Position numbers and translations under genes: made by a program
Shown here: positions 3,036-29,841 of the stretch, one piece after another
Layout of the letters: the number at the start of each line of letters is the position of its first letter
Numbering within the stretch: the stretch's first letter is position 1
The notes under the pieces: generated by a model
What the model was told of the DNA's origin: nothing
The model's input: the letters and a program-made list of their open reading frames with translations, nothing else
The model's database searches: none
Origin: a virus
Reading direction: 5' to 3' (one strand)
Length of the DNA stretch: 29,841 nucleotides
Virus record (IMG/VR): IMGVR_UViG_3300021347_000021
Span: 1-29,841 of that record

Positions 3036-5189
3036 ATGGCGACAGAATTTATATCTAATAGTTGGTTAATGCCAACCAACGCAAATGAAGAAGCAAATAG
3101 ATTGTCAAACTTTTCTTTAGATTTTGATGGGAGTAGTCAATATGTATCTCTAAATGAAGTTATTTATAGTGGGGCTTTTACTTTTTCATTTTGGCTTAAA
3201 CCAGACAACTTGACTCTTGCATTTATAACTGGAGATATTAATAGTAATTCACATTTTGTATGGCTAAATTCATCAACCAAAATATATTTAAAAGCAAGTG
3301 GCTCAACTTTTATCTTCACAGAATCAGCTGGAAATGATATAACTATTGGTTCTTGGCAAAACATAATAATAACAAGAGATGCTTCTAATAATGTAAATTG
3401 CTATAGAAATGGAGTTGCATTTGGTGGAACAGGTGTATTATCTGGAGATTTTAAATTAAATTCTATTGGACAGGTATTTTCTGGCATAGGTAATTGGTTT
3501 TTTAATGGTTCTATGACAGAGGTATCAATATTTGATTACTCGCTTTCAGCTTCACAAGTAACTCAACTATACGGAACAGGTTCAGCTATTGGTAACCCTA
3601 TGGCAATAACAAACGGAAGAAAACCTGTGGCATATTACCCTTTAGGAAATGCAGCTTTCAACGGAGAATTTTTAGTGCCTAACGGAGCAGAACAAGATTA
3701 TGTATTTGATTTTGCTGGTTCAGCTAAAATAAATTATTCAACACCTGTTGATTTAGGGGTTGTATCTACTTTTTCATTTTGGATGAATATTGATACAGGT
3801 ACAACGGGAGCTTTATTTGGTAACACAGATGTTGTAAATCCTACTTATGAATATGTTGTTTACTATGCAGGTTCTGCATTTTATTTTAAAATAGCTGGTG
3901 CATATGCAGATTTTCCAAATGCTGCTTCGGCCATAAGTACAGGTCAATGGCATCACGTAGCTTTTGTTAGGCCATCAGAAAACGAAGTGAAGTGTTATAT
4001 TGATTCTGTATTAACTGATACTATAACTTCTTGGAGTGGTACACCAGGTTCTAATCCTATAAAGTTTGATTTAATTGGCTCAAGGCCAGGCGGAGGTTTA
4101 GATTATAGTGGAAAAATTACAGAAATATCAGGCTTCAACACAGCATTACCAGCAACGGGAACAGAATCAGTTCAATCTTTATATAACTACGGTACACCGC
4201 CTAATATAGCTTCTTATAGCAACTTACAAGCGTGGTATGAATTAAACGCTTCAGCAACCTTTGATGGTTCAAATTGGAGTATTCCAGATGCTTCAAGTAA
4301 TTCTAACACAGGCACATCTTCAGGTATGACTGCTGCAAACCTTGTGCAAAGTGATTTAATTATAAACGCACCTTATGACAGTTTTGCTTTAGATTTTGAT
4401 GGTGCAAATGACTATATAAGCTCTAACAATATTGGCATATCTGGTTTAAATAATGCTTCTGTTTCTGTATGGGTAAAACCAACGGGTTCAACAAGTAGTA
4501 CATATAGGTCTATTGTGAACCAATGGGAAGCAACTAATTCAGCTTGGGGGTTGTGGTTAAATGGCACTGGTAGCACTTATAGAATACATTGGAATCAAGC
4601 GGGTGCAAGTGGAGTTAATAGTGGTTTAATAATACCAAAAGATGAATGGTCGCACATAGCTATAGTTAAAAATGCTACAACTTTAAAAATGTTTTACAAT
4701 GGTAGTGAGGTTAATAGCTTTAGTATCTCTGCTGCTACTGGCTCAGGTGCAACTATATTAAATATAGCAGCTCAATACACATCAACATCAGCTGTAACAT
4801 TTTTTAATGGTAATATTTCAAATGTTTCAATTTACAATTCAGAATTATCAGCAGCGCAAGTAACAACACTTTATAATGAAGGCAAACCTTTTGACTTAAA
4901 CACCTTTGAAGTTACACCAGTAAGTTGGTGGAGATTAGGAGCAACAAATTCATCATTTGATGGTTCAAATTGGACTGTATTGGATGAAATTTCTACAAGT
5001 GGAAACAATGGAGTTTCAGCTAATATGACACAATCAGATTTAGTTGATGGAGTAGGAGCAACAGGAAGCGGAACATCTTCAGGTATGTCAAGTGGAACAA
5101 ATAGAACAGGAGATGCACCTTATTCAGACAATAATGCAGTATCTTACAATATGAGCGTAACCGCTAAATCAACATCAGTACCAACATAA
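3036..5189 (+). CDS. Three-LamG-domain adhesin, receptor-binding candidate
   Basis: The protein has 717 residues and three LamG-type domains in tandem. The first is at about 27-185 (LDFDGSSQYVSL to SLSASQVTQLYG), the second at about 220-385 (VFDFAGSAKINYST to ALPATGTESVQSLYNYG) and the third at about 447-616 (ALDFDGANDYISSN to SELSAAQVTTLYNEG). Each has the typical FSFWLKPD/FSFWMNID/VSVWVKPT strand and a WQNIIITRD/WHHVAFVRP/WSHIAIVKN strand. Linkers of the type FDGSNWSIPDASSN and FDGSNWTVLDEI recur, and the C-terminus is Ser/Gly/Thr-rich. There is no enzyme motif. The likely role is binding host surface glycans from the virion. It shares its module with the preceding gene, 36 bases away. Exact virion location is not known. 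Confidence 0.65.
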   Translation: MATEFISNSWLMPTNANEEANRLSNFSLDFDGSSQYVSLNEVIYSGAFTFSFWLKPDNLTLAFITGDINSNSHFVWLNSSTKIYLKASGSTFIFTESAGNDITIGSWQNIIITRDASNNVNCYRNGVAFGGTGVLSGDFKLNSIGQVFSGIGNWFFNGSMTEVSIFDYSLSASQVTQLYGTGSAIGNPMAITNGRKPVAYYPLGNAAFNGEFLVPNGAEQDYVFDFAGSAKINYSTPVDLGVVSTFSFWMNIDTGTTGALFGNTDVVNPTYEYVVYYAGSAFYFKIAGAYADFPNAASAISTGQWHHVAFVRPSENEVKCYIDSVLTDTITSWSGTPGSNPIKFDLIGSRPGGGLDYSGKITEISGFNTALPATGTESVQSLYNYGTPPNIASYSNLQAWYELNASATFDGSNWSIPDASSNSNTGTSSGMTAANLVQSDLIINAPYDSFALDFDGANDYISSNNIGISGLNNASVSVWVKPTGSTSSTYRSIVNQWEATNSAWGLWLNGTGSTYRIHWNQAGASGVNSGLIIPKDEWSHIAIVKNATTLKMFYNGSEVNSFSISAATGSGATILNIAAQYTSTSAVTFFNGNISNVSIYNSELSAAQVTTLYNEGKPFDLNTFEVTPVSWWRLGATNSSFDGSNWTVLDEISTSGNNGVSANMTQSDLVDGVGATGSGTSSGMSSGTNRTGDAPYSDNNAVSYNMSVTAKSTSVPT

Positions 5190-10971: not shown

Positions 10972-11274
10972 ATGAAAAAGGGTTTAAAATCACTTTCAAA
11001 TCTTATAGAAGAATTAATAATTGAAGGTTATACAATACCAGAACTTGCAAATCAATGGGGTTTTCACCCTACTACAATTGCTTGTGCGTATAAACCATCT
11101 AAAAAAGGTTTTAAGTATATAGATTTTGAACAACAAAAAAAAGAAGTAGTAGAGTTGCCTAAGGGTGATTCTATTACTTTCAATAAGATTTATACTTGGG
11201 AATCATTAAGCCAATTAGAAAAATTATTTTACGAACAATACAAAGAAAAACACGAAGCATACTATGAAAAATAA
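10972..11274 (+). CDS. Helix-turn-helix-like protein, unknown role
   Basis: The protein has 100 residues. Residues about 8-36 (LIEELIIEGYTIPELANQWG, FHPTTIACAYK) look like a helix-turn-helix of the kind used for promoter or replication-site binding. The rest is polar, with a helical C-terminus (LEKLFYEQYKEKHEAYYEK). It does not match a family I can name. It could be a second early regulator. It overlaps the next gene by 11 bases. Confidence 0.5.
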   Translation: MKKGLKSLSNLIEELIIEGYTIPELANQWGFHPTTIACAYKPSKKGFKYIDFEQQKKEVVELPKGDSITFNKIYTWESLSQLEKLFYEQYKEKHEAYYEK

Positions 11275-11515
11275 CAATTTAAAACTGTTTGATGATTACG
11301 ATGATTTACAAACTTGGAAAGAACATTGGCAAGATATGCCTGAATTTATTTATGATGATTTAATGCCATATCAACAAATAATAATAAGCTTTGAATGTAA
11401 AGAAGATGTTTTAACATTTTCTAAATTAATCAATCAAAAATTAACTTACAAAACTAAAAGCGTATGGTTTCCTAAAAAAGATAATATAAAACCATCTAAC
11501 TATGAATACAAATAA
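11264..11515 (+). CDS. Small protein paired with the glycosyltransferase gene
   Basis: The protein has 83 residues. It contains HWQDMPEFIYDDLMPYQQII, then ISFECKEDVLTFSKLINQKL and TYKTKSVWFPKKDN. I recall this MPEF....EDVxxFxxLIxQxxTxKTxSxWxP pattern in small phage proteins or domains encoded next to TET-associated-type glycosyltransferases, so it may be a partner of the next gene. That association is from memory. It has no catalytic residue pattern of its own. It overlaps the glycosyltransferase gene by 14 bases, so expression is coupled. Confidence 0.6.
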   Translation: MKNNNLKLFDDYDDLQTWKEHWQDMPEFIYDDLMPYQQIIISFECKEDVLTFSKLINQKLTYKTKSVWFPKKDNIKPSNYEYK

Positions 11516-12341
11516 AACTAAATACCCTATATATATAATTTCTAAAGGTCGTGCTGAAAGTAGACAAACTTCTAAAACACTTGAAGAAATGAATCTTGAT
11601 TATAAAATTGTTATTGAACCTCAAGAATATGATTTGTATGCTAAACACATTGATCAAAGAAAAATTCTTGTAACTCCGTTTTCAAATCTTGGTCAGGGCA
11701 GCATACCTGTTAGAAATTTTGTAATGGAACATTCAATTCAAAATATGCACGAAAAACATTGGATACTTGATGACAACATTAATGGCTTTGTTAGATTAAA
11801 TAGAGGTAAAAGAATACCAGTTAGAAATTCAGTTATTTTTAATTCTATTGAAGATTTTGTTGATAGATATACAAATATAAAAATGGCTGGAATGAATTAT
11901 CGTTTTTTTGCAGGTCCATGGATTAAAAAGCCATATTTTTTAAACACAAGAATCTATAGTATTATACTTCTTGATAATTCAATTAGACACCGTTGGAGAG
12001 GTCGTTACAATGAAGATACTGATTTAAGTTTAAGAATACTTAAAGATGGCAATTGTACTGTTTTATTTAATACTTTTTTAGCTAATAAAGCTGCTACACT
12101 TACAATGACTGGCGGCAATACTGAAGAAGTTTACGCTGATTCAAACAATAGATTAGATTTTGCTGAAAGCTTACAGAAACAACATCCAGATGTAGTTAAA
12201 ATAGTTTGGAGATACAGTCGTTGGCACCATGAAGTAAATTACAAAGTATTTAATAAAAACAAATTATTATTTAAAAATGATTATGTTAAAAAACAAGGAG
12301 TAAACAACTACGGAATGAAATTAACTAAACTAAACAACTAA
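11502..12341 (+). CDS. Glycosyltransferase of the TET-associated (TAGT) type
   Basis: The protein has 279 residues. The N-terminus KYPIYIISKGRAES (residues 7-20), the segment YKIVIEPQEYDLYA (34-47), HWILDDNINGF (86-96, with Asp90/Asp91 as metal-site candidates) and GRYNEDTDLSLRIL (167-180) follow the order of TAGT-type GT-A transferases. These were first noted in phages with TET-family dioxygenases and have been linked to glycosylation of hydroxymethylated bases. No dioxygenase, thymidylate-synthase-like base hydroxymethylase, or DNA methylase is seen in this genome. The acceptor may therefore be a host-made or protein substrate, or a base made by an unrecognised enzyme. It is the only sugar-transfer enzyme here and lies among replication genes. 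Confidence 0.8.
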   Translation: MNTNKTKYPIYIISKGRAESRQTSKTLEEMNLDYKIVIEPQEYDLYAKHIDQRKILVTPFSNLGQGSIPVRNFVMEHSIQNMHEKHWILDDNINGFVRLNRGKRIPVRNSVIFNSIEDFVDRYTNIKMAGMNYRFFAGPWIKKPYFLNTRIYSIILLDNSIRHRWRGRYNEDTDLSLRILKDGNCTVLFNTFLANKAATLTMTGGNTEEVYADSNNRLDFAESLQKQHPDVVKIVWRYSRWHHEVNYKVFNKNKLLFKNDYVKKQGVNNYGMKLTKLNN

Positions 12342-12352
12342 ACTAAATAACT

Positions 12353-12853
12353 ATGAACACAACTAAATACAATGAAAAATATCATAATAATAAATTTAAT
12401 TTTTTAATAAGTAAAAAGTCAGATATGTATAGGTCTATAATAGACATTGATGGCTTAATTACAAAACGAGATAAAAATATAAAATACTGTTTAATGTACG
12501 ATCATAAAAATAATAATGATAATCCTTCAATAAACACATTAAAAGAGTTATCATCATTAGTGGGCGTAACTCGTGGAGATGGTTTAATAATTAAATGTTT
12601 TATTGTTAGAAGTGAAATTAATATATTAAATGATAATCAAGAAGTTAAAACTGATTGTGAAGTTACTACTGTATATGAAATAAAGAAATGGGATAAACAT
12701 TTTAATAAAAGTAATAAACTTTTAAAACACGCTGATTTTATAGAAAAATCTTTTGATATTCGTTCAGATAGTTTATTAATTAAATTTTTTCAACCTGAAA
12801 CACATGAAGAAGTTTATAATAATTTTCAATCTAATCCTTTTTATTTAAAATAA
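12353..12853 (+). CDS. Unknown early protein next to the glycosyltransferase
   Basis: The protein has 166 residues and no recognised family. The start MNTTKYNEKYHNNKFNFLIS is followed by a mixed alpha/beta region (IDIDGLITKRDKNIKYCLMY) and VTRGDGLIIKCFIVRSEINI, then a basic helical section (KKWDKHFNKSNKLLKHADF). Codon use is as AT-rich as its neighbours. The start context is ATAACTATG. Since it follows the glycosyltransferase by 11 bases, it is a candidate for the missing partner enzyme, but no catalytic signature can be read. Confidence 0.6.
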   Translation: MNTTKYNEKYHNNKFNFLISKKSDMYRSIIDIDGLITKRDKNIKYCLMYDHKNNNDNPSINTLKELSSLVGVTRGDGLIIKCFIVRSEINILNDNQEVKTDCEVTTVYEIKKWDKHFNKSNKLLKHADFIEKSFDIRSDSLLIKFFQPETHEEVYNNFQSNPFYLK

Positions 12854-12860
12854 TTAAACT

Positions 12861-13340
12861 ATGAAAGAACTACCATACTTTAAATTTTATCCAGCACAAT
12901 GGATTACAGGAAATATAAGCTTTTTAAGCTATGAAGAACAAGGAGCGTTTATGAAGCTTTGTTGTTACTATTGGTCGCAAGAATGTAAATTAAGTAAATT
13001 ACAATTACAAAAAATAATACCAGAAAGTTATAAAACATTATTAGAATTTAATTTAATTAAAGTTGACGATGATTTAAATATTATTATAAGCTGGTTATAT
13101 GAACAATATAAAGAACGTAAAAAACAACATAAAACTAACGTAAAGAATGGCCGTAAGGGGGGTAAAATAAGTGCTTCAATTAGAGCTAATAATAAGCAAG
13201 GGTCAAGCGACGCTTTAAGCGGGGCTCAAGCATTAAGAAAAGATAATATAATAAAAGATAAAATAAAAAAAGATAATACCCTTTTTACAGACCCTAATTT
13301 AAAAGTTGATAATGAATTAAAAAACCTTTTAAAGAAATGA
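12861..13340 (+). CDS. Replisome-organizer-like protein (DUF1376-like N-terminus)
   Basis: The protein has 159 residues. Its first 55 residues (LPYFKFYPAQWITGNISFLS, YEEQGAFMKLCCYYW) match the DUF1376-type winged-helix domain found at the N-terminus of phage and plasmid replication initiators. A basic stretch (YKERKKQHKTNVKNGRKGGK, about residues 89-108) and a Lys-rich linker follow. The C-terminus is short, so it may serve only as origin binder or helicase loader. The next gene, a RecA/DnaB-fold ATPase, overlaps it as ATGA, so the two very likely work together at the origin. Confidence 0.7.
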   Translation: MKELPYFKFYPAQWITGNISFLSYEEQGAFMKLCCYYWSQECKLSKLQLQKIIPESYKTLLEFNLIKVDDDLNIIISWLYEQYKERKKQHKTNVKNGRKGGKISASIRANNKQGSSDALSGAQALRKDNIIKDKIKKDNTLFTDPNLKVDNELKNLLKK

Positions 13341-29371: not shown

Positions 29372-29841
29372 TGGATAACTTACATTTAATACAATTAAAC
29401 GAATATCAAAGGCCAGTAATCACTGAAGATAAAAACAGAGAGTGGATCGGTATTGGTGAAAATAATGATTACTATCAATGTTTGATAGATGCCTTTATGG
29501 ATTCAACTACTAATAATGCTGTAATTAATGGTATTGTTGATAGAATCTATGGTAAAGGTTTAGATGCTACTGATAGCCATAAAAAACCAGAGGAATACGC
29601 TAATATGAAATCAATCTTGAAAAAGAAAGATTTACGTAGGGTTTGCCAAGATTTAAAGTTATTAGGTGAAGGTGCATTTCAAGTTACATATCAAGGTAAA
29701 AAAATAAAAAGCATTACACATTTTCCAAGAGAAACTTTACGTGCTGAAAAATGCAATGAAGAAGGTGAAATTGAAGCTTATTTTTATAGTGCAGATTGGG
29801 AGAATGTAAACAGAAATACTAAATTAAAAAGATTTCCTGTT
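29371..29841 (+). CDS. Portal protein, N-terminal part (continues at base 1)
   Basis: ATG at 29371 overlaps the stop of the preceding gene as TAATG, which suggests translational coupling. The 157 codons read here contain a NAVINGIVDRIYGKGL stretch and then a KDLRRVCQDLKLLGEGAF stretch. This pattern of a short segment around a stem helix followed by 'cell/gene product processed or fed into a G-x-G/A-F strand' is what I associate with phage portal proteins of the SPP1/HK97 kind in Bacteroidota phages. The gene runs off the window and continues in frame at base 3. Portal is the best assignment because the window otherwise has capsid, protease, terminase and connector genes but no other portal-sized candidate. 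Confidence 0.75.
   Translation, partial: MDNLHLIQLNEYQRPVITEDKNREWIGIGENNDYYQCLIDAFMDSTTNNAVINGIVDRIYGKGLDATDSHKKPEEYANMKSILKKKDLRRVCQDLKLLGEGAFQVTYQGKKIKSITHFPRETLRAEKCNEEGEIEAYFYSADWENVNRNTKLKRFPV
29702..29841. repeat. Terminal direct repeat, right copy
   Basis: This is the partner of bases 1-140, with one mismatch (T at 29715 for A at 14). The difference falls in the third position of an Ile codon and is silent. Confidence 0.95.

Follow-up and report, generated by a model that had tools for sequence, protein, structure and literature searches.

What does a TET-associated glycosyltransferase (TAGT) modify in a phage whose genome encodes no recognizable enzyme for preparing a base, and which of its neighbors, if any, works with it? 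The question is raised by a locus in the 29,841-nucleotide viral record IMGVR_UViG_3300021347_000021 (hereafter, the window), which an earlier sequence-only reading had described as a complete 29.7-kb genome with a TAGT packed together with 2 genes of unknown function, at 11264 and 12353. The record is indeed circularly complete, as shown by a 140-bp terminal direct repeat with a single mismatch, and all 3 open reading frames (ORFs) of that reading were recovered, each with an ATG start and a TAA stop (Table 1). The packing is tight, with 11264 overlapping the preceding gene by 11 nt and the start of the TAGT gene by 14 nt. We consider it likely that 11264 and 11502 together form a DNA glycosyltransferase cassette of two components that is exchangeable and independent of TET.

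Table 1. Coordinates of the features of the window discussed in the text.
Feature	Coordinates	Strand	Basis
Terminal direct repeat	1–140 with 29702–29841	+	Shows circular completeness
Upstream backbone gene, 100 aa, weak HTH_38 match	10972–11274	+	Conserved 5' of the slot
Small TAGT partner, 83 aa, 'MPEF...KTKSIWFP' domain	11264–11515	+	tblastn and linkage counts
TAGT glycosyltransferase, 279 aa, assigned to the partner-type clade	11502–12341	+	PF20691, phrog_842, alignment, GT-A model of a homologue
Exchangeable modification slot	11060–12341		DNA homology breaks against sister phages, slot contents
Downstream backbone gene, 166 aa	12353–12853	+	Kept whatever the slot holds
Replication-type gene, DUF1376/primosomal-like	12861–13340	+	Conserved 3' flank of the slot

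The assignment of 11502 to the TAGT family, made previously from the order of motifs, is borne out by profile searches. The product matches PF20691 (TAGT) in Pfam at 141 bits, the cutoff being 27.5 (E = 5e-41; residues 8–205, profile positions 1–205) as well as phrog_842 (E = 1.6e-43), and the residues D90 D91 N92, N170-x-D172-x-D174, H228 P229 D230 V231, and H242 H243 are invariant in the TAGT alignment. The fold was modeled on a natural partner-TAGT fusion homologue (L090) rather than on the window protein itself; the model of this fused homologue (pLDDT 91.4) has a GT-A fold, with a VIA Z of 14 for the GT-A matches, and the PDB structure matches of its TAGT part are GT-A enzymes, mostly protein or polysaccharide glycosyltransferases. 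The phylogenetic tree separates TAGTs of the T6/T2 (100/100), TET (100/99), and partner (94/91) types, and the window TAGT, which shares 30% identity with the TAGT of phage P12024L, is placed in the partner-type clade, separate from the TET-linked and T6 enzymes. This clade is widespread, being found on at least approximately 594 viral contig stretches.

The clade takes its name from the small gene at 11264. When the 83-aa protein was compared by tblastn with 50,697 phage records, matches were confined to phages carrying a partner-type TAGT and were always located directly 5' of the TAGT domain, mostly within the same gene, and 11264 thus corresponds to an N-terminal TAGT domain encoded as a gene of its own. 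A partner-derived profile placed it next to or fused with the TAGT in 170 of 187 TAGT ORFs (directly upstream in 143, directly downstream in 6, and as a fusion in 21). Because these ORFs had been retrieved by their resemblance to the window and to fused homologues, the fraction describes this clade rather than all of PF20691. Among the remaining ORFs, 11 had the partner nearby and 1 had it far away, 3 uncut ORFs lacked it, and 2 were cut. An independent scan of genome contigs found the partner next to or fused with the TAGT in 24 of 26 cases and a scan seeded with the partner found the TAGT in 9 of 9, whereas the partner was found neither at 22 TET-type loci nor at 25 sister loci. Judged by this linkage, 11264 is a real, previously unnamed, dedicated TAGT partner, in agreement with the small partner gene of the sequence-only reading.

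What the partner does is suggested by its fusions. Five residues (M25, P26, F43, W68, and P70) are invariant in an alignment of 13 members; some homologues carry a ParB_N domain (PF02195, E down to 9.8e-13), and a UDG-superfamily domain forms the C-terminal part of 2 TAGTs (E = 6e-6 and 5e-4), in each case at a minority of loci. The L090 fusion was modeled with a pTM of 0.89 in addition to the high pLDDT, and the partner and TAGT domains are therefore predicted to have a defined mutual placement. The partner, naturally fused to TAGT or ParB_N, probably acts as an adapter domain. Its sequence retrieved only chance-level matches from PDB, apart from an implausible one to a collagen adhesin (E = 4e-5, 30 positions), the Foldseek and VIA lists for the L090 fusion were dominated by the TAGT, with no fold match for the partner part, and nothing in the 11264 product was suggestive of a dioxygenase.

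The sequence-only reading had recognized no TET dioxygenase, hydroxymethylase, thymidylate synthase (TS) homologue, or methylase in the genome, and profile searches, including the search for dioxygenases that it had proposed, agree with it. No protein of the window has a Pfam match to any dioxygenase, methylase, or TS family, and a whole-genome profile search yielded no PF12851, PF00303, PF00145, or PF02511; P12024L, used as a positive control for the TET search, does match PF12851. Across the clade, TET above the cutoff and the TS family were each found in 0 of 32 partner-type viral records (25–334 kb), some of which are fragments, so that a single record lacking them means little and the combined 0 of 32 is what counts; being sequence-profile absences, these counts would miss an enzyme of a new family. 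C5-methylases were present in 6 and ThyX in 4 of 37 partner-type records. By contrast, all 8 distinct P12024L-like TAGT loci reaching far enough have an adjacent TET and none has the partner. On these profile counts, the lack of a hydroxylase characterizes the whole TAGT clade and is not a quirk of the window phage.

These counts bear on the alternative that the pair follows the logic of the TET and T4-like systems, glycosylating 5hmU or 5hmC that comes either from the host or from a phage enzyme whose family has escaped recognition. In those TAGT contexts that have been described, hydroxymethyl pyrimidines are used (TET-TAGT in P12024L; T6, PMC13390438), and some large partner-type myophages carry TS homologues, those of phage 65 and Kuja being atypical. 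The 8 readable TS homologues of these myophages have Asn at the key position (N177) and are of the dUMP type, Asp at this position being the mark of dCMP-type enzymes (PMC8670742), and in large partner-type phages with TS-family genes 5hmU could be the acceptor. Nevertheless, the lack of TET and TS in the 32 records and the scarcity of C5-methylases and ThyX argue against such a supply, and no third conserved gene, such as a dedicated hydroxylase would be expected to leave, was found beside the partner-TAGT pair in the loci of the clade. We regard this explanation as unlikely, albeit one to be taken seriously. As a separate observation, the TS gene of Tenacibaculum phage PTm1 (L046, 199569–201143) contains a long in-frame insertion within a 527-aa open frame, and the TS copy of Pectobacterium phage POP12 (L047) is likewise split and contains a stop.

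The case for a TET-independent DNA glycosyltransferase cassette comes chiefly from the site that it occupies. DNA homology to sister phages that share the window's genome plan (L017–L029) ends at 11048–11059, within the upstream backbone gene, and resumes at 12331 or 12359, the former position coinciding with the stop codons of both cassettes. The sisters have kept the 10972-like and 12353-like flanks and carry, in place of 11264 and the TAGT, an ABC-ATPase-GNAT fusion, which matches a protein of Tenacibaculum phage pT24 at 57% and belongs to a family for which acylation of a DNA base has been predicted (PMC7824862). In a relative (L271), the slot is occupied by Mom (3276–3971; PF25680, E = 1.6e-28; phrog_1384, E = 1.4e-45), and in 3 others (L272–L274) by an FkbM-type methyltransferase, a ParB-C-like small protein, and a divergent TAGT, TET not being found in these 3 records. 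The siblings P12024L and P12024S have likewise swapped a TET-TAGT-methyltransferase set for an ABC-GNAT between flanks that are 97.8% and 96.5% identical. By its contents, the slot is a site where known or predicted DNA modifiers are exchanged, and this is the strongest reason for which we infer that DNA is the substrate.

The same neighborhoods weigh on the possibility that the pair glycosylates something other than DNA, be it a protein of the virion or the host, a glycan on the host surface, or tRNA. Such an acceptor would fit the absence of an encoded base hydroxylase, the predominance of protein and polysaccharide glycosyltransferases among the GT-A neighbors in PDB, and the position of the Vibrio phage 1.076.O gene between portal and head genes. 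It is, however, difficult to reconcile with a slot common to Mom and ABC-GNAT, with the ParB_N and UDG fusions, with the replication genes (DnaB, ResIII helicase, and DNA polymerase) that recur near partner-type TAGTs, and with the action of TAGT relatives of the T6 and TET types in DNA modification (T6-like: PMC13390438), and we consider it rather improbable. That the TAGT is a decaying remnant of a TET-TAGT system, as might be suggested by Flavobacteria phage P12024L, which has the complete TET-TAGT-methyltransferase triad in a comparable part of its genome, is highly improbable and already largely refuted: the window TAGT lies outside the P12024L clade in identity and tree, all catalytic-type motifs are intact, and the partner is kept clade-wide.

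The downstream neighbor fared differently from 11264. The sequence-only reading had offered 12353 as a possible new base-modifying enzyme, but its homologues sit downstream of the slot beside ABC-GNAT, Mom, or other TAGT cassettes; because the gene is retained whatever the slot holds, it is not the TAGT partner, and we rejected it as a base-modifying companion. Thus, of the 2 packed neighbors, the idea that one matters holds for 11264 and fails for 12353. The structure prediction suggested earlier for its product (AF2, 8 rows) reached a pLDDT of 46.6, too poor for a fold search. The invariant D31/D33...D50-H51-K52 pattern resembles, as a residue pattern alone, a PD-(D/E)XK nuclease, whereas hhalign against the one family compared, the window's own PDDEXK_15, gave a probability of 0.26%. 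Standing beside every modification cassette, 12353 might be a restriction-like companion.

In the two-component cassette that we favor, the overlapping genes 11264 and 11502 would probably be translationally coupled. The TAGT, as a GT-A enzyme, would move a sugar from a host nucleotide-sugar, and the 83-aa partner would dock on it as in the fusions, probably serving as a DNA-binding or target-presenting adapter. The acceptor may be a normal base, a hydroxyl made by the host, or a base that an enzyme of a new family has activated; it would not be the hydroxymethyl base of a known phage route, since the genome encodes neither TET nor a TS-family enzyme. Since slot relatives swap other DNA-base modifiers, we infer that the product most likely shields the genome, the sugar acting against host nucleases as Mom does. 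Thus, of the 3 explanations put forward in the sequence-only reading, that of a new enzyme at 12353 falls away and a different acceptor or an unmodified base is favored, with a host-made hydroxylated base as a further possibility.

A bolder version, which we put forward only tentatively and hold to be possible but doubtful, is that the pair glycosylates a canonical DNA base directly, without a preceding hydroxylation, the partner presenting the target base, and would so be the sugar counterpart of Mom. We know of no description of direct glycosylation of a canonical DNA base, and to our knowledge all characterized phage DNA glycosyltransferases act on a hydroxylated pyrimidine. A lone glycosyltransferase with no prepared acceptor would also need unusual chemistry.

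Comparison with known systems shows which parts of the cassette are shared. The TET-associated TAGT of Nonlabens phage P12024L (gp26–gp28) is also a PF20691 glycosyltransferase in a slot that P12024S fills with ABC-GNAT, but it has an adjacent TET/JBP dioxygenase and no partner, the reverse of the window. The T2/T6 beta-glucosyl-HMC-alpha-glucosyltransferase belongs to the same Pfam family (T6, E = 5e-11) and is the source of the PHROG name, yet its clade is distinct, with a long branch; T6-like phages provide both 5hmdCMP and the first glucose (PMC13390438), whereas neither was found in the window (no PF00303, and hence no dCMP hydroxymethylase of the TS family). Phage Mu Mom, which shares the slot in L271, is a stand-alone DNA modification without prior base hydroxylation, although it is a GNAT-fold enzyme acting on adenine N6 (PMC7824862) rather than a GT-A glycosyltransferase. 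The ABC-ATPase-GNAT proteins of pT24 and P12024S (gp24) take the place of the TAGT cassette in the same slot but have an unrelated fold and a predicted transfer of acyl rather than sugar (PMC7824862). Finally, phage ParB_N-DNA methyltransferases (phrog_498) carry ParB_N on a DNA-modifying enzyme, and in L012 a ParB-partner protein precedes the TAGT; their catalytic unit is, however, a methyltransferase, and the window is without ParB_N. The partner-type TAGTs are thus a large, widespread clade for which no supply of hydroxylated bases is seen and which has an obligate, unnamed small partner instead. With the cassette small and relatives present in isolated phages such as Vibrio phages 1.124.O and 1.076.O and Tenacibaculum phage PTm1, glycosylation of unmodified DNA is directly testable; the cassette may yield a new DNA-protecting chemistry and help to explain phages resistant to restriction or CRISPR.

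Clues to the donor sugar come from the larger relatives. Genes for UDP-glucose dehydrogenase and for a UDP-glucuronate-decarboxylase-like enzyme lie a few genes from the TAGT at 6 and 8 of 103 loci, respectively, and in L052, L053, L090, and L003 a UDP-glucose dehydrogenase and/or an NAD-epimerase (UDP-glucuronate-decarboxylase-like) stands beside the partner-type TAGT, which suggests UDP-pentose or UDP-glucuronate as the donor in these phages. No such UDP-sugar genes were found in the window genome, and its TAGT would draw on a host sugar donor.

Several loci depart from the simple pair. The UDG-superfamily domain (GQAPG...HPSG) is C-terminal to the TAGT in L116 (9644–11284) and L125 (9286–11022), 2 of about 103 loci. 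In Vibrio phage henriette 12B8 (L037), the partner and TAGT are unannotated and lie in different frames, as a split gene or a frameshift. Elsewhere in the window, adjacent LamG-type (Laminin_G_3) genes at 2037–2999 and 3036–5189 are likely receptor-binding or tail-associated. Four loci (L277, L279, L280, and L036) contain 2 tandem TAGT genes with one shared partner or one each, suggesting sequential sugar additions.
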